Positions 9,699-16,117 of a stretch of DNA of 64,000 nt are shown here, one piece after another (within the stretch, counting starts at the first letter, position 1; each line of letters opens with the position of its first letter). The stretch is from an uncultured Akkermansia sp. (GTDB lineage: Bacteria > Verrucomicrobiota > Verrucomicrobiia > Verrucomicrobiales > Akkermansiaceae). Location: assembly GCA_947589295.1 (NCBI GenBank), contig CANQBZ010000002.1, positions 1-64,000 on the forward strand. The letters are read 5' to 3'. The position numbers and the translations under genes were made by a program. The notes beneath the pieces are model-generated. The model searched no databases, was not told where the DNA came from, and saw nothing but the letters and a program-made list of their open reading frames with translations.

Positions 9699-10226
9699 AT
9701 GGACTCCGATTACATAGGTTACGCTATCCGTCACACTCGGATTCTTTACGCGCCGTACAGGCGTATTGAATCCTTTGGGGAGACACGCTTCAACTTTCGG
9801 CTTATTACTGAGCCGATGGATAGTGTGGGCGAGTGTCGCATACGCAGCGGCTGGGTAGAAGCCGGGAAACCTCGCATCCTCAAGCCCAAGCGCCTGAGCA
9901 ATGGTCCGGATGTGGAGGGATTCAGTGCGGAGGCAACACGCTTTTTTGAATGGATGGCGGAACATGGTATGCATATGCGAGCGCTCATTCAGTATGGGTT
10001 TCAATTTATCCGATCAGAAGTGCAGGAAGAATGCCTGCATGAGGATATTCGCGAAGTGAGTGAGCGTGTGGTACGCGAAGCAGAGAGCAGCGGCGACGCC
10101 TTGAGGGCAGTCATAGAGGGTGTAGATGACGCGTGGGAGATATCGCTGCTGCGTTTCATGATTGAGATGATTGAGCAATCGCATGAGATTAATATCTTTG
10201 ATTTTAAGCGTCACGGTCTGCTGTAG
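9699..10226 (+). CDS. Uncharacterised 175-aa protein
   Basis: I do not recognise this protein. It is soluble and charged, with an N-terminal mixed region (MDSDYIGYAIRHTRILYAPY), a beta-looking middle (TRFNFRLITEPMDSVGECRI) and a largely helical acidic C-terminal half (SEVQEECLHEDIREVSERVV). No signal peptide, membrane segment or metal motif is evident. Codon use looks like its neighbours, and the reading frame is not shadowed by a better one. It overlaps by 44 bp the start of the following exported LysM protein, so the two are probably coexpressed. It could be a lineage-specific accessory to envelope genes; this is only a positional guess. Confidence 0.65.
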   Translation: MDSDYIGYAIRHTRILYAPYRRIESFGETRFNFRLITEPMDSVGECRIRSGWVEAGKPRILKPKRLSNGPDVEGFSAEATRFFEWMAEHGMHMRALIQYGFQFIRSEVQEECLHEDIREVSERVVREAESSGDALRAVIEGVDDAWEISLLRFMIEMIEQSHEINIFDFKRHGLL

Positions 10227-11025
10227 CGTCACGCTCGCGGAAACTCAAGAGAATTACTCGCTCTGGCCGCAAAGGCCAGCCGAGCTGGAGCAAGCGCGAC
10301 GTCTCTATGCTCAGCGGCGGGATACTCAAATGCTCACTCTACTCCAGCCTTTCATCTACAAACGAGGTTTGGCTGGACGTGAGGCCCGCCGTTTAGTGGG
10401 GCATGTACGCGTGCGACAATACCTAACGACCTCGAATCCCAATATACGCCGCCATGTTGTGCATCGGGGAGACAATTTGGATCGAATAGCTACAGCTTAC
10501 AATAGCTCGCCGGAGTTGATCATGCTCATCAATATGATGACCAAGCCATCGGACCTCAAGGTGGGACAGAGCCTCTACATAGCGCCCGCAACTATGCGAG
10601 TGGAACTGCATGTGGCGGACCGAGAAATAACGCTTTGGGACGGCCGCACTTTAGTGGCAGCGTACGGAATATCCACTTCTCCCGATCTTGCAGGCTCAGG
10701 ACAAAATGAGGAAACCACCCTCAGGGATCGTGAGGGAGAAATCAACGGCAGCCATATACCGCGTGCTTCTGCACTATTTGCCTCGTCCGATCGCATGCTT
10801 ACCTTCTCGAACGGGCTGACCATCATCAATAACAGACAACGGCCGCCACGCACAGCAAAGGCGTATGTGCAGATGCAGAGGCGCGACCTTAATGAACTTT
10901 CCTTGCTGATACGAGGTGGAGCGCGCTTATCTGTAGTGCGTGATGAGGAAAAGTACGATCCTTATGCTGTACAACCGACTGGACACAGCAAGTCGACGCG
11001 AGGTGAGGACGCGGGGAAACGGTAG
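10183..11025 (+). CDS. Exported LysM protein with L,D-transpeptidase-like domain lacking Cys
   Basis: About 280 aa from ATG 10183 (ATG 10171 is possible). A signal peptide (MRLISLILSVTVCCSVTLA) precedes a helical segment, one LysM domain (HVVHRGDNLDRIATAYNSSP through LKVGQSLYIAP) and a C-terminal region beginning VELHVADREITLWDGRTL that resembles the opening strands of YkuD L,D-transpeptidases. However, the mature protein contains no cysteine at all and no HG..SxGC-type motif, so transpeptidase activity is unlikely. LysM suggests peptidoglycan binding in the periplasm. It overlaps the preceding unknown gene. It may be a wall-binding scaffold derived from an L,D-transpeptidase; the domain assignment of the C-terminal part is tentative. 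Confidence 0.75.
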   Translation: MRLISLILSVTVCCSVTLAETQENYSLWPQRPAELEQARRLYAQRRDTQMLTLLQPFIYKRGLAGREARRLVGHVRVRQYLTTSNPNIRRHVVHRGDNLDRIATAYNSSPELIMLINMMTKPSDLKVGQSLYIAPATMRVELHVADREITLWDGRTLVAAYGISTSPDLAGSGQNEETTLRDREGEINGSHIPRASALFASSDRMLTFSNGLTIINNRQRPPRTAKAYVQMQRRDLNELSLLIRGGARLSVVRDEEKYDPYAVQPTGHSKSTRGEDAGKR

Positions 11026-11081: not shown

Positions 11082-11888
11082 TCAGTGTTTTTTTCGCGGG
11101 CGTATGCCAATGTAGTCGCGTACAGATTTGAACCCCTGGCGGTAGATACCCGCAGTGGCATCCCAAAATGAGCAAGAACTCCCGCCGTCCATGTTCAATG
11201 CCATATAAACGCGAAAGGAACCCAAGCAGTTTGGGGTGCACAGGATATCAGCCAATTCACTCAAAGTAAGCGGAGAAGTGATGGCCAGACACCATCCACC
11301 AGCTCCATCCGTAGCAATAAATGTTCGCATGGCCTTATGCGTGCGCTCCAATCCCGGGACAGCCCGATAATGCTCTACTAAAAATGGCCCGCCCTGAATG
11401 GCTTCGCGCATGCGCTGCGCAGGAAAGCGAAGCGTGCGGCTACGTTCCATAAAAATTTTTTCTCCCGTGTCATAGAGGATGCCGACAACAGTAAAACCGC
11501 CGGTGGCTAACGGAGCAACGGTGCGGGAGGCGTGACGGAGTAAGCCAATGGGTGCTCGCGCAGGACCAGCGGCAAAGTAGCCTCCGTTCACCCCGGCCAC
11601 GCAAGAATTGCGACGCATGGCGATTTCCAAGTTGCCATACATCGGCTTGCCGTCTCCCTCATCCACGATGCATAGCTCATAGTTAGAAGCACGGAAAAAG
11701 TGTGCCTCAATGCGGTAGCCCTTCAGCTCGCCATGGAGCAGCCCCAGCCAACTGTCGTTCGAGGAATACTCCCGACTGCAAAATTCAGCGTATTGTCCGG
11801 CGCAACTTCCGCCACACAGAAACAAGCCCCCCACAAATAAACCTACAAGCACTCGACCCACATACTCACATGACAAGCAGCAGAACAT
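11082..11888 (-). CDS. Exported phosphodiester glycosidase (NAGPA-like) domain protein
   Basis: About 268 aa. After a hydrophobic N-terminal signal or anchor (VLVGLFVGGLFLCGG) the chain matches the phosphodiester-glycosidase domain of the NAGPA family: GVNGGYFAAG, GFTVVGILYD, IQGGPFLVEH, TFIATDGAGGWCLAI and NMDGGSSCSFW. In mammals this domain removes GlcNAc from GlcNAc-1-phospho-mannose; bacterial members are poorly characterised and often act on or near cell-wall glycans. I start it at ATG 11888, 19 bp after the stop of the upstream gene; the 49 residues upstream in the ORF track are a frame-shifted copy of the neighbour's 3' end. It is the last gene of an exported three-gene operon. Confidence 0.8.
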   Translation of the reverse strand: MFCCLSCEYVGRVLVGLFVGGLFLCGGSCAGQYAEFCSREYSSNDSWLGLLHGELKGYRIEAHFFRASNYELCIVDEGDGKPMYGNLEIAMRRNSCVAGVNGGYFAAGPARAPIGLLRHASRTVAPLATGGFTVVGILYDTGEKIFMERSRTLRFPAQRMREAIQGGPFLVEHYRAVPGLERTHKAMRTFIATDGAGGWCLAITSPLTLSELADILCTPNCLGSFRVYMALNMDGGSSCSFWDATAGIYRQGFKSVRDYIGIRPRKKH

Positions 11889-11907
11889 GCGCGCAGCAGT
11901 AAGAGGA

Positions 11908-13059
11908 CTATTTGACCGTGGTATTGCGCTCCGTTTTCTTGACTTCGCGTTCACGTTGACGTCGTTTTTTCTCATCATCCTTTTCTTTAGCTCTGCGGGC
12001 ACGACGTTCATCAGATGTTTCATTGGCGCGCTCATTGCCCCAAAGCACGGCTAATTGAGACATTGCTCGGCCATAAAAACTCTTGGGGTCTATTTTCATG
12101 CATGCGGCAATCATGGCCTTCATGCGCTTGCTGCCACCTTCCTCCCGACGCGCTTGTCCAATGAGCAAGCAGTACGCCGCTTGCCGATCTTCTGGGCGCA
12201 GCGCCGTATCATTGACAATCTTCATGGTTTCCTGCATGAGGTCATGCAGGGTGGTATGAAAATCGGCTTTCAGGAAGCCATCCTTGGTATCCATCTGCTG
12301 GTAGAGGAATTGCAGGGCGCTGTGCTCATTGCGACGTACCAAACCTGTACTGTCACTAGGATCGGCCTCTTTAATCATATCCAACAAATCAGCAGGTTTC
12401 TGAATGGGAAGTTCCGCGACTTCCCCGAGCACTTTTGCTTTTTCTACGCCTTGGAGAGTACCGGCTCGCTGCAGCAATTCGAGCATTTTTCGATGCATCT
12501 GAAGTTTTTGAGTGATGTTGTTCAAAGCAGCCGCCCCGTCTTCATCGCCCAGAAAATCCATACCGGGTAAATTGGCATACATGTTGCCGTCTTTATCGAC
12601 CAGCATGATCGTGGGGCATACACTGAATGGGATGGAAGGCATGCCAGCAGTGATACGTCGCTGCTCGTCTGCTTGTGCTTGGTTGGGCGATTCATAGATA
12701 GGCACAGCAAGCAGTTGAGCCTGACCAGTTATTTTTTCCAGATTCTCTTTCATCCAGAATGATTGGAGCATACGCAAGCTTCGCTGATTCCAATCCGGTC
12801 CATAGCAAAAGATGATGATGCCATCATCCCCTGCTGCGCTCAGCGCCTCCTGGTAGGTTTCAGGGCGGCGTGGATTTTTAGATTCAGTTTTTTTCCCATC
12901 CGGTTGCTGTTCATTGTTACTTTCCGCCGGGGGTTCCTGCGCCGACTCCGCAGGATCAGATGTCTGCTGAGCAAGGCAACGACCGGGAGTAATAACAGCC
13001 GCAAACGCTACACCCAACGCTACGGATTGAAGAAGCTTACTTGCCTTTCTTATTGTCAT
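11908..13059 (-). CDS. Exported thioredoxin-fold protein without CXXC
   Basis: 383 aa with a signal peptide (SVALGVAFAAVITPGRCLA) and a Gln/Glu/Pro-rich linker. Residues about 78-165 look like a thioredoxin fold: IIIFCYGPDWNQRS at the place where thioredoxins have WCxxC, and a cis-Pro loop VCPTIMLVDKDG. The redox CXXC is replaced by WNQR, so a dithiol oxidoreductase role is unlikely, although C85 and C148 remain. The C-terminal half is alpha-helical and ends in a highly basic tail (RRAKEKDDEKKRRQREREVK). Its start lies 23 bp inside the end of the upstream transglutaminase-like gene, which implies coupled expression. A binding or chaperone role in the periplasm is possible; function unknown. 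Confidence 0.7.
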   Translation of the reverse strand: MTIRKASKLLQSVALGVAFAAVITPGRCLAQQTSDPAESAQEPPAESNNEQQPDGKKTESKNPRRPETYQEALSAAGDDGIIIFCYGPDWNQRSLRMLQSFWMKENLEKITGQAQLLAVPIYESPNQAQADEQRRITAGMPSIPFSVCPTIMLVDKDGNMYANLPGMDFLGDEDGAAALNNITQKLQMHRKMLELLQRAGTLQGVEKAKVLGEVAELPIQKPADLLDMIKEADPSDSTGLVRRNEHSALQFLYQQMDTKDGFLKADFHTTLHDLMQETMKIVNDTALRPEDRQAAYCLLIGQARREEGGSKRMKAMIAACMKIDPKSFYGRAMSQLAVLWGNERANETSDERRARRAKEKDDEKKRRQREREVKKTERNTTVK

Positions 13060-15673
13060 AGACTAAAATCGCTTTGAAGTTGATGCCTTGCAGCTGCTCT
13101 GCGCCAGAATCAATGCGTATATAACGCGCCTGTGGACAGTCGTGCTCGACAGTCAGCACAATGCAGGGGTTTTCAGAGGACTCAGGAAGGTTAGCAAGCA
13201 GTTTCCAACTTTTCCCATCTACGGAGGTTTCAACATACCACTCGCGGTAGGCGGTGCAATCGCGCCCAGAAGGAACAATCACGATACCGCCTATGTATGT
13301 GCGTTTGGGCAATTCCACAGTAACTTTTCGATGCTTCCCTTTTTCAGAAATAATAGCCCCGCCCTGTGGAGTGAGAGCCGCAGAGTGGGTCACAATGCTA
13401 TCCTGCTTGGGAGCGTACATATCCAGCATGACCAGCCCACCCGGAGAGACTAGCTTGCCAGGAGGCGGCGTGAAGTCCGGCATGTTGTTTTCTCCAGGCT
13501 TGAGAAATTCCTTGCTGTATTTATTGGCCAAATCCAAATAGTATTCTTTGTCTCGTCCATTACTGCGTGGCCCTTCTAAAGAGAGGGCTGTCATCTCCTC
13601 TGCAGCGCGTATAACCGACGCTTTCAGCAGTAGCTGAGTACTCTCGTAATTCGGATCATCCTTTGGCAGTTGTGTGAGCAACTCATCCACCATACCACGC
13701 ACGCGGTCGCCAACGCTACGCTTCTCTACGTACGCGCGACGCACAGCCCAGCTCAACGCCGCGCCGAACGCGGGTCGACGTCTCACGCTATCGGCTACAA
13801 GCTTGAAAAAATTGAGTTTGATAGGCAAAGCTTTGCCAAGCGAGTCAAATTGCATGTTGAGCATCTTCTCCATGTCCCACTCTGCCTTTTCATTCTCGTT
13901 GAGATTCTCAAAATAGCTCTTAAAAGCAACCATCTTCTGCTTGCCTGTCTTGAGCGTAGTAAGCAGGGAGGGATAGATCGTCTCTGTGAGGTAGCGTGCG
14001 CACATTTCGGGGTGCTTGGGAGCAACAGACGAGCAGATAAAATCATTTACTCCGAGATATTTTGAGGGGCGTTTGCTGAGATGTTTTGCAGCAGTGTCCA
14101 AATACATCGTCCAGACAGGGTTGTAGAGAGGCTGCATCGTAACGGCCATTTCATACAAACTGAGAGCCTTGATTGGATTTTTATTTTGCGACAAAAGAGC
14201 GGCGAGAGAGCAGATCATCTGCGCATCACGAGTACGCTGCCCATCTTTATACATGTCGGTCATCATTTGCATGGCGCTCCACCTGTGCAATCCCCATGTG
14301 GCATAGTGAGGTTCGCGTTTTTCAGAGATTGAGTTGGCGGCGTGCCATTCTCCATCGACAAATACGGCGTATGCGCAATGGCCAGGTTCGCCCATGGTGA
14401 AAGCTGGCACACCGTTTGCGCACGCCGCAGACGCCCCATAATGAGATAAGCCACCGCATACAGCTCCTACATCGCGCGTCTCCTTGGCAAACAGTCCGGG
14501 GTAAATCACATCAAAGGGTTGATAGTAATATTTGGAAAAAATCACATCCCCATACTTGTTGAGGGGGAGGTAGGGTACCTGACTGCACATGCCAACGTAA
14601 GCCCGAGCTGGAGCAGAGCAGTTATCACGCTGCCAGCGTAGGCTACTGGCAAGTCCCATGGGGTGGTCGCCTTTCCAACCGCAGGGAAAGTGCATGAGCC
14701 AGTCGGGCATATTGCCGAAGGAAGAGTTGAGCAGCCCCTTGTCCCAGCTTTCAGCAAAGTAGAGGTAACGCTCGCGTGCCAAGCGAAAATTGTCCTTTGC
14801 CGGAGCCCGCCTTTTGCCTGAATCAGCAGCAATGTCGGGCAAAGGCATGCCGATTTCTTTGTAATACTTAATTTGCTCCTTGGAGAGCGGAGCACCCGCA
14901 CCATACCACCCATTGCGAGTAAACTCAACCGCCACCGCCGCAGCAATGCGTCGCTTGACGCCGGGCTTAATTTTCGTGGCGTCTGTGAGGATATCTCGGT
15001 CCATATTTTTATCCACCTGGCGAAACTGGTTAATCATGGCGAGGGCGATTTCAGGTTTTTCCATCTCTCCATCGTAAACAAAAGAGCTGATCCAAGGAAG
15101 GTTGTTGAGCAGCTCTGCCAATGAATCTGCCGTCCCCTTATCCTTCATTAGCTCAGTGAGGGCATCGAGATCAGCACGGTGCAGTAGTTCCCATTGGGCA
15201 ATTTGAAGTCGATTTTCCGGTTCACGGATGAAGGCGAGTATATGTTCGCGCCCTGGATTGCCGACACGCGAGCGGATACGGTTGGTGAGCTTACGTTCGA
15301 GCGCTTTCGGTTTGCGCCATTCGTTGGGACGAATAACACTTTTGACATTTTGCTCCTGCACGGGGCGACGTCCGTTATCCTCACCCAGAGGATGGTTAAT
15401 TTTTGTAATTTCTGCATTTTCGGGGTCTTCTTCTTCCTCCTCCTCCGGGCTATCTTCGATAACAGGTTCGGGTTCGGGTTCGGGCTCAGGCTCAGTGGTC
15501 GTTTGAGTATCAGGAACCGGCGTATCTTGATGAATAACTATTTCGGCGGTGTGTGTTTTTTGCCGAGTCTGCTGCACAATTCTCTCGCCGCCGGGAAACA
15601 TGATGGGATCTACCACGTACCCTACCGCCAACGCCACTAGGATGAGAACGATGTAGGATAGTCTCCACTTCAT
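13037..15673 (-). CDS. Exported transglutaminase-like protein with C-terminal discoidin-like domain
   Basis: 878 aa from ATG 15673. A single N-terminal hydrophobic segment (YIVLILVALAVGYVV) and an acidic Pro-Glu linker (repeated PEPEP, then EEEEEE) suggest a periplasmic protein tethered to the inner membrane. Residues 400-450 contain VCGGLSHYGASA (C406) and GEPGHCAYAVFVDGEW (H432), the Cys/His arrangement of bacterial transglutaminase-like peptidases. The last 140 residues (AALTPQGGAIISEKGKHRKV to RYIRIDSGAEQLQGINF) look like an F5/8 type C (discoidin) domain, often carbohydrate-binding. The ORF track start at 15727 adds 18 residues that run over the promoter. First gene of the exported three-gene operon; substrate unknown. 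Confidence 0.75.
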   Translation of the reverse strand: MKWRLSYIVLILVALAVGYVVDPIMFPGGERIVQQTRQKTHTAEIVIHQDTPVPDTQTTTEPEPEPEPEPVIEDSPEEEEEEDPENAEITKINHPLGEDNGRRPVQEQNVKSVIRPNEWRKPKALERKLTNRIRSRVGNPGREHILAFIREPENRLQIAQWELLHRADLDALTELMKDKGTADSLAELLNNLPWISSFVYDGEMEKPEIALAMINQFRQVDKNMDRDILTDATKIKPGVKRRIAAAVAVEFTRNGWYGAGAPLSKEQIKYYKEIGMPLPDIAADSGKRRAPAKDNFRLARERYLYFAESWDKGLLNSSFGNMPDWLMHFPCGWKGDHPMGLASSLRWQRDNCSAPARAYVGMCSQVPYLPLNKYGDVIFSKYYYQPFDVIYPGLFAKETRDVGAVCGGLSHYGASAACANGVPAFTMGEPGHCAYAVFVDGEWHAANSISEKREPHYATWGLHRWSAMQMMTDMYKDGQRTRDAQMICSLAALLSQNKNPIKALSLYEMAVTMQPLYNPVWTMYLDTAAKHLSKRPSKYLGVNDFICSSVAPKHPEMCARYLTETIYPSLLTTLKTGKQKMVAFKSYFENLNENEKAEWDMEKMLNMQFDSLGKALPIKLNFFKLVADSVRRRPAFGAALSWAVRRAYVEKRSVGDRVRGMVDELLTQLPKDDPNYESTQLLLKASVIRAAEEMTALSLEGPRSNGRDKEYYLDLANKYSKEFLKPGENNMPDFTPPPGKLVSPGGLVMLDMYAPKQDSIVTHSAALTPQGGAIISEKGKHRKVTVELPKRTYIGGIVIVPSGRDCTAYREWYVETSVDGKSWKLLANLPESSENPCIVLTVEHDCPQARYIRIDSGAEQLQGINFKAILVYDNKKGK

Positions 15674-15679
15674 ACTGCC

Positions 15680-15708
15680 TTGATAGCAGATTTTAGCTAC
15701 CTTGTCAA
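15680..15708 (-). promoter_or_regulatory. Promoter of the transglutaminase-like operon
   Basis: Read on the minus strand: TTGACA, exactly 17 nt, TATCAA, then 6 nt to ATG 15673. Transcription would start at the A of the start codon (leaderless). Confidence 0.7.
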
Positions 15709-15751: not shown

Positions 15752-16117
15752 TCAGCTGTCACCCCCCTTAATAAAGTGGCTCAGTATCCACAATACGAGG
15801 ACGACGAGAAGCAAGGGCCCCGCCACAGATACCAAACCAATGAACAGAGCGAGCAGCACAACCATGACGGCTACAAAGAGCAGGATCCCACGCCAGCTCG
15901 TATAACGCGTAAGCAGCTGCCAGAGCGTAGGATTTGCCTCTTCCTGCTCCTCCTTGCGTAAATCCAGCTCAGCAAAACGGCGCCATGTGGCAGAGTTTGC
16001 GCAGCGCACCCACGTATCGTCCTTAACACGACCCTCGGCTCGCAAACGCAGCAGGTCATACCCTGTAACAGGTCCTATTTTCTTTTCCCCGGTATCGTAG
16101 TAGAACTTTCTCGCCAT
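15752..16117 (-). CDS. GYF_2-domain membrane protein
   Basis: 121 aa. The N-terminal 50 residues (KFYYDTGEKKIGPVTGYDLLRLRAEGRVKDDTWVRCANSATWRRF) fit the GYF_2 (DUF4339) pattern of a short Gly-Pro and Trp-containing peptide-binding module. Two closely spaced hydrophobic segments follow (GILLFVAVMVVLLALFIGLV and GPLLLVVLVLWILSHFI). It begins 8 bp after the lpdA stop and so is probably cotranscribed with it; no functional connection is evident. GYF_2 proteins are common in Verrucomicrobiota and Planctomycetota and usually have unknown roles at the membrane. Confidence 0.8.
   Translation of the reverse strand: MARKFYYDTGEKKIGPVTGYDLLRLRAEGRVKDDTWVRCANSATWRRFAELDLRKEEQEEANPTLWQLLTRYTSWRGILLFVAVMVVLLALFIGLVSVAGPLLLVVLVLWILSHFIKGGDS

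Follow-up and report, generated by a model that had tools for sequence, protein, structure and literature searches.

In Caenorhabditis elegans, the peptide:N-glycanase (PNGase) PNG-1 is built from an N-terminal thioredoxin domain, a transglutaminase (TG) core and a C-terminal carbohydrate-binding domain (PMC8997433), and its thioredoxin domain carries the redox-active motif WCGPC (PMC4018987). Domains of similar kinds are predicted for two adjacent genes, A and B, in a 64,000-nucleotide stretch of DNA from an uncultured Akkermansia sp. (contig CANQBZ010000002.1; the whole stretch is referred to as the window). Gene A (13037-15673, minus strand) encodes an 878-residue protein, predicted to be membrane-anchored, with TG-like, tetratricopeptide repeat (TPR)-like and CBM32-like parts. 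Gene B (11908-13059, minus strand) encodes a thioredoxin-fold protein of 383 residues without a CXXC motif, whose export is predicted. Gene C (11082-11888, minus strand; 268 residues) encodes a NAGPA-family protein, a cotranscribed neighbour judged to lie outside the A-B unit.

The likeness to PNG-1 concerns fused B-A proteins of relatives, which share the order of thioredoxin domain, TG-like core and sugar-binding-type beta-sandwich. However, PNG-1 is a cytosolic, redox-active animal protein with a PAW domain, whereas the B-A fusions have TPR-like repeats and a CBM32 domain and appear to be redox-dead proteins destined for export; A also lacks the Cys-His-Asp triad of PNG-1/NGLY1 (no Asp occupies the expected column), and only the domain order is alike. 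That order may be regarded as an architectural parallel and not as proof of activity, and common inheritance is unsupported. With the TG-core superfamily (PF01841) in general, A shares a Cys at the start of a helix, a His at the start of a strand, a GIPA-like motif and a Trp after the His strand, but it has no Pfam match, carries Ser, Asn, Thr or Gly in place of the Asp, contains an extra invariant Cys433, and possesses its own N-terminal helical domain, a TPR-like region and a CBM32-like tail.

The proteins closest to B belong to the chlamydial DsbH / DsbD C-terminal domain type, DsbH being the best match in both sequence and fold. AGR2, AGR3 and ERp44 are monothiol proteins similar to protein disulphide isomerase (PDI), and the one-Cys relatives of B resemble them. 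In contrast to DsbH and the PDI-like proteins, B of Akkermansia has no active-site Cys, a long helical C-terminal half and a fixed partner, A. The match of gene C to the NAGPA / DUF2233 phosphodiester glycosidases (PF09992) covers almost their full model, but its link with A-B is limited to one clade. A further comparison is offered by PknS-EcfK, reported as a transmembrane Hanks-type kinase activating an extracytoplasmic function (ECF) sigma factor (PMC13147305). It resembles two Akkermansia genomes in which a gene for a kinase, a transmembrane segment and an ectodomain adjoins an ECF sigma gene, and differs in that the Akkermansia ectodomain is the A module with B as partner; the copy in the window has no kinase.

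Each fold of A-B is known. The near-obligate pair, its fusions, its kinase-linked forms and its presence in all sampled Akkermansia were not found in the open-licence literature or in the family libraries searched, in line with a preliminary description of the locus, which knew of no system with such a set of genes. Pfam holds no family for the core of A or for B. No paper came up for Amuc locus tags guessed to lie close to the A. muciniphila-type pair, and none joined TG-like, thioredoxin, tetratricopeptide and Verrucomicrobi; papers combining Akkermansia with transglutaminase dealt mainly with coeliac disease and diet.

Conservation of the A-B gene pair

The functional unit of the locus is formed by genes A and B, not by A, B and C. 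A lies next to B three times in the genome from which the window derives. In the first 119 loci collected, A is always followed by B on the same strand unless a contig end truncates A. With 40 further loci, mostly more distant, 155 A-family open reading frames (ORFs) were counted, a few loci included twice making this and the following counts slightly too high; 130 of them have an adjacent downstream B, 13 are fused with B and 12 are without it. The median spacing between the adjacent genes is -4 bp, i.e. a 4-bp overlap, and it does not exceed 50 bp in 128 of the 130 pairs. The 12 ORFs without B comprise three contig ends or cut loci, seven short A-like paralogs and two real exceptions, L154 and L163, which are the only full-length, non-truncated A proteins lacking the partner. 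The short A-like proteins without an adjacent B (L181-L187; about 550-640 residues) keep the Cys/His core and occur in Akkermansia genomes of 2.7-3.3 Mb.

The 13 fusions (about 1010-1190 residues) come from other families of Verrucomicrobiota and place B first and A second. Since this reverses the order of the separate genes, it argues for a functional relationship and not for read-through. The two proteins also co-evolve: in a mirror-tree comparison of 94 non-redundant pairs the distance matrices of A and B correlate at r=0.93, the best of 2000 permutations reaching 0.09. The pairing is near-obligate and broadly distributed. A was detected in all 76 sampled Akkermansia genomes, with one to six matches each, and in 58 of 289 genomes sampled across the phylum; A-B also occurs in other genera of Akkermansiaceae, with genomes of 4-7 Mb, and in further Verrucomicrobiota families.

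Domain analysis of A and B

The structure model of A (predicted local distance difference test, pLDDT, 84; predicted template modelling score, pTM, 0.79) allowed the protein to be divided into six successive sections, all encoded on the minus strand; (i) an N-terminal membrane helix formed by a hydrophobic segment (residues 2-25; 15599-15670); (ii) a disordered Pro/Glu-rich linker with pLDDT below 50 over most of its length (residues 26-110; 15344-15598); (iii) a helical domain predicted by the model (residues 116-275; 14849-15328); (iv) the alpha/beta TG-like core, delimited by model and profile comparison (residues 297-465; 14279-14785); (v) a TPR-like helical region recognised by profile search and model (residues 466-725; 13499-14278); (vi) a beta-sandwich of the CBM32/F5-8-type-C-like kind (residues 735-873; 13055-13471). 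The last section has a Pfam match (PF00754) in 45 of 45 A members, some of which, the window protein included, score below the Pfam cut-off while relatives score above it, and Foldseek matches its fold to CBM32-like domains (TMt about 0.7).

The core contains five residues, C406, G407, H432, C433 and W443, that are invariant across 83 diverse A proteins. C406 (codon 14456-14458) is the candidate nucleophile and H432 (14378-14380), next to the invariant C433, the candidate catalytic His; they are 26 residues apart in 132 of 132 sequences, fused and short relatives included. Their nomination as a catalytic pair in the preliminary description is thus consistent with conservation. In profile comparison by hhalign against 27 TG-core domains from relatives (PF01841 members), the A core scored 31.6 (P=8e-5), and the alignment set C406 and H432 on the TG Cys and TG His. 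The controls stayed lower: 40 column shuffles gave at most 15.8, the reversed profile 9.0 and NlpC/P60 10.0, while other parts of A and B reached at most about 8 in the first comparison. An NlpC/P60 identity of the core was rejected, its score being no better than that of shuffled columns. In the model, the candidate Cys stands at the start of a helix and the candidate His at the start of a strand, a secondary structure that fits a TG fold. The earlier naming of A as a TG-like/discoidin protein agrees with these matches. Single-protein searches of PDB sequences with A and C gave nothing useful, and profiles were needed.

The thioredoxin-fold domain of B was delimited by profile and model (residues 69-170; 12550-12855), and the profile of B matches chlamydial DsbH (E=2.5e-8), in agreement with the fold match of the model. 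The cis-Pro (P149) is kept in 93 of 93 B proteins, whereas CXXC is absent from all that are partnered with A: the window protein has WNQR (residues 90-93; 12781-12792), noted already at first description, where WCxxC would be. Motifs in Akkermansia are mostly WNxRS, WDxxS and YDxxS, and 17 B proteins, most of them from outside the genus or family, have a single Cys (WCxxG/S). The identity of an intact disulphide isomerase was rejected for B on the absence of CXXC from the partners of A. B may be a former redox enzyme turned binding or scaffold subunit. WCxxC was kept only in two B-like proteins (L175:10468-11433 and L178:361-1962), neither of which is the direct partner of an A; these are possibly redox-active relatives of the ancestor of B.

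Proposed function and alternatives

The reading favoured here, to which about an even chance is given, is that A-B constitutes a Cys-His enzyme, anchored in the membrane and working in the periplasm on glycosylated polymers of the envelope, together with a redox-dead thioredoxin-fold partner. A would be held in the inner membrane by its single N-terminal helix and the Pro/Glu-rich spacer, leaving in the periplasm an ectodomain composed of the TG-like Cys-His site, the TPR-like helical surface and the CBM32-like end. Using C406 with H432, A would hydrolyse an amide bond of such a polymer, or transfer it; the polymer may be a glycoprotein or a peptidoglycan-like one, and the CBM32-like end would dock A on its glycan. 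B, the fixed partner, would hold an extended polypeptide in its thioredoxin cleft without redox chemistry. Amide chemistry is proposed because of the relation of A to the TG superfamily, a glycosylated substrate because of the CBM32-like domain, and substrate holding because B is paired with A and has lost CXXC.

Several points weigh against this reading. The hhalign probability of the A-TG match is 61%, whereas known TG subgroups match each other at 93-99% with scores of 45-94, so that the TG-like assignment of A, drawn from remote profile comparison, would denote a remote relation at best. No TG family (PF01841) figured among the Pfam matches listed for 45 A proteins and for nine further A or A-like proteins. 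The Asp expected after the His strand is absent, column 448 being occupied by Ser, Asn, Thr or Gly, and the full TG Cys-His-Asp triad is therefore not established for A. Foldseek with the whole model of A was dominated by matches to the helical and CBM32 parts, not to the core. The presumed physical contact between A and B has its basis in pairing and fusion.

The main rival is a non-catalytic sensor, in which a dead TG-like core and a dead thioredoxin fold would read envelope glycopolymers and signal through the membrane helix of A; it is considered possible, with a clearly smaller chance than that given to the enzyme. It draws on the absent Asp, on the redox-dead state of B and on unusual forms of A. 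In a single-contig genome (G355), locus L176:2766-8247 contains successively an ECF sigma gene, a kinase-transmembrane-A fusion and B, and the fused Ser/Thr kinase domain looks intact, with HRD and DFG present. The same arrangement in G100 (L180:2498-8046) includes a pseudokinase with degraded HRD/DFG, and in a horse-gut Akkermansia (L067:5191-8187) an FHA domain precedes the membrane helix of the A ectodomain. These fusions show that the A ectodomain can be coupled to cytoplasmic signalling, and the position of the kinase or FHA domain before the helix supports its location outside. The L176 and L180 arrangements possibly form an envelope-sensing circuit in two Akkermansia genomes. However, the invariance of C406 and H432 even in fused and short relatives would be unusual for a dead site, and the copy in the window, like most others, has few residues on the cytoplasmic side. 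The proposed enzyme can accommodate both forms: in a few species the module would also report on the envelope, by way of FHA or of a cytoplasmic kinase whose gene adjoins one for an ECF sigma factor, while the window copy, without either domain, would act as an effector. In a close relative, about 5 kb separates a gene for a small FHA-domain protein (L044:523-1149) from the A-B-C operon downstream of it.

It is unlikely that A is a true transglutaminase-type crosslinker that joins envelope proteins while B carries the substrate. The remote TG profile match and a thioredoxin-fold partner suited to holding polypeptides would fit such a role, but the TG Asp is absent, and bacterial TG-fold proteins are mostly thought to be peptidases or to have no known activity. 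Still less probable is digestion of mucin or other host glycoproteins as food: the presence of A in every sampled Akkermansia, in one to six copies, and its CBM32-like end are compatible with it, whereas the predicted anchoring of A at the inner membrane speaks against it, and the occurrence of A-B in other genera and families means that it is not tied to the mucin-feeding genus.

Operon structure, promoter and gene C

The gene calls and coordinates of the preliminary description were reproduced on the minus strand, as were the 23-bp overlap of A and B (13037-13059) and the 19-bp gap between B and C. The start codon in the overlap is kept in 24 of 28 window-type loci. Comparison with six close relatives gave pN/pS (ratio of non-synonymous to synonymous differences) values of 0.13 for A and about 0.24 for both B and C, indicating purifying selection on all three, with synonymous sites close to saturation. 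The closest named matches of A are rabbit-gut "Lapin" Akkermansia metagenome-assembled genomes (81-83% identity in A). B and C have hydrophobic N-termini and A an N-terminal membrane helix, from which export of all three is predicted.

Cotranscription of the three genes from a leaderless promoter, proposed at first description, is consistent with conservation. The -35 hexamer TTGACA (15703-15708, minus strand) is invariant in seven of seven clade members (the window and six close relatives), as is TATCA of the -10 hexamer TATCAA (15680-15685, minus strand), and all seven keep the layout TTGACA-17 bp-TATCAA-6 nt-ATG. Across these seven, the two hexamers are 98.6% identical, against 34% for the -100 to -36 region. 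Because the -10 hexamer ends 6 nt before the ATG of A, the transcript should begin at or beside its start codon. The site is missing from the output of a generic promoter scan, which requires a T in the final position of the -10 hexamer. Upstream of A, at a distance of 78 bp and likewise on the minus strand, lies a gene for a small GYF_2-like membrane protein (15752-16117). No conserved flanking genes besides A and B were found in window-type loci. An anti-phage defence role was discarded, PADLOC giving no match.

C is an ordinary member of the NAGPA family, as previously assigned (PF09992; 57.2 bits against a cut-off of 25, model positions 2-167 of 169), and phosphodiester glycosidase activity is predicted for it. 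Unlike the A-B pair, which holds together in relatives, the joining of C to it did not withstand comparison. NAGPA is present in 38 of the 76 Akkermansia genomes, one copy each, so that half of the A-bearing genomes lack it, and in about 30 of the 38 it lies apart from A-B, on other contigs or far off. It is linked to A-B in only eight, all within the clade of the window: in seven it follows directly downstream on the same strand (G000, G084, G403, G460, G461, G462 and G463), and in G449 it stands beside A in divergent orientation, as in L062. A LysM protein gene is convergent with C in the window (10171-11025, plus strand), and the C-terminal part of its product resembles, by eye, a degenerate L,D-transpeptidase. 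In many Akkermansia genomes NAGPA is adjoined by a LysM homologue, G002 and G107 being two cases in which A-B lies elsewhere, and this makes the LysM gene the old neighbour of C. C joined the A-B operon in the clade of the window and is an incidental neighbour. Joint processing of an envelope glycopeptide or glycolipid by A, B and C, as first suggested from the operon shared by the window and its six close relatives, is therefore unsupported as a unit and is the least probable of the explanations, NAGPA being mostly unlinked to A-B or absent and having LysM as its constant neighbour.

Significance

That A-B occurs in several copies, is fused in other families and, in some species, is attached to a kinase or FHA domain was beyond the reach of the preliminary description. 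Akkermansia is a genus of strong health interest, and A is kept in all of its sampled genomes; with its pairing to B, the fusions and the links to kinases, what were two "hypothetical" genes become a machine open to testing. In a more specific and rather speculative form of the enzyme reading, A-B might be a new glyco-amidase of the bacterial envelope. Its TG-like Cys-His enzyme would remove or rearrange amides linked to glycans on envelope polypeptides, a redox-dead thioredoxin-fold subunit would hold the substrate, and in some species a kinase, together with an ECF sigma factor, would wire the pair to gene expression. If true, the nematode thioredoxin-PNGase would have a parallel in bacteria.

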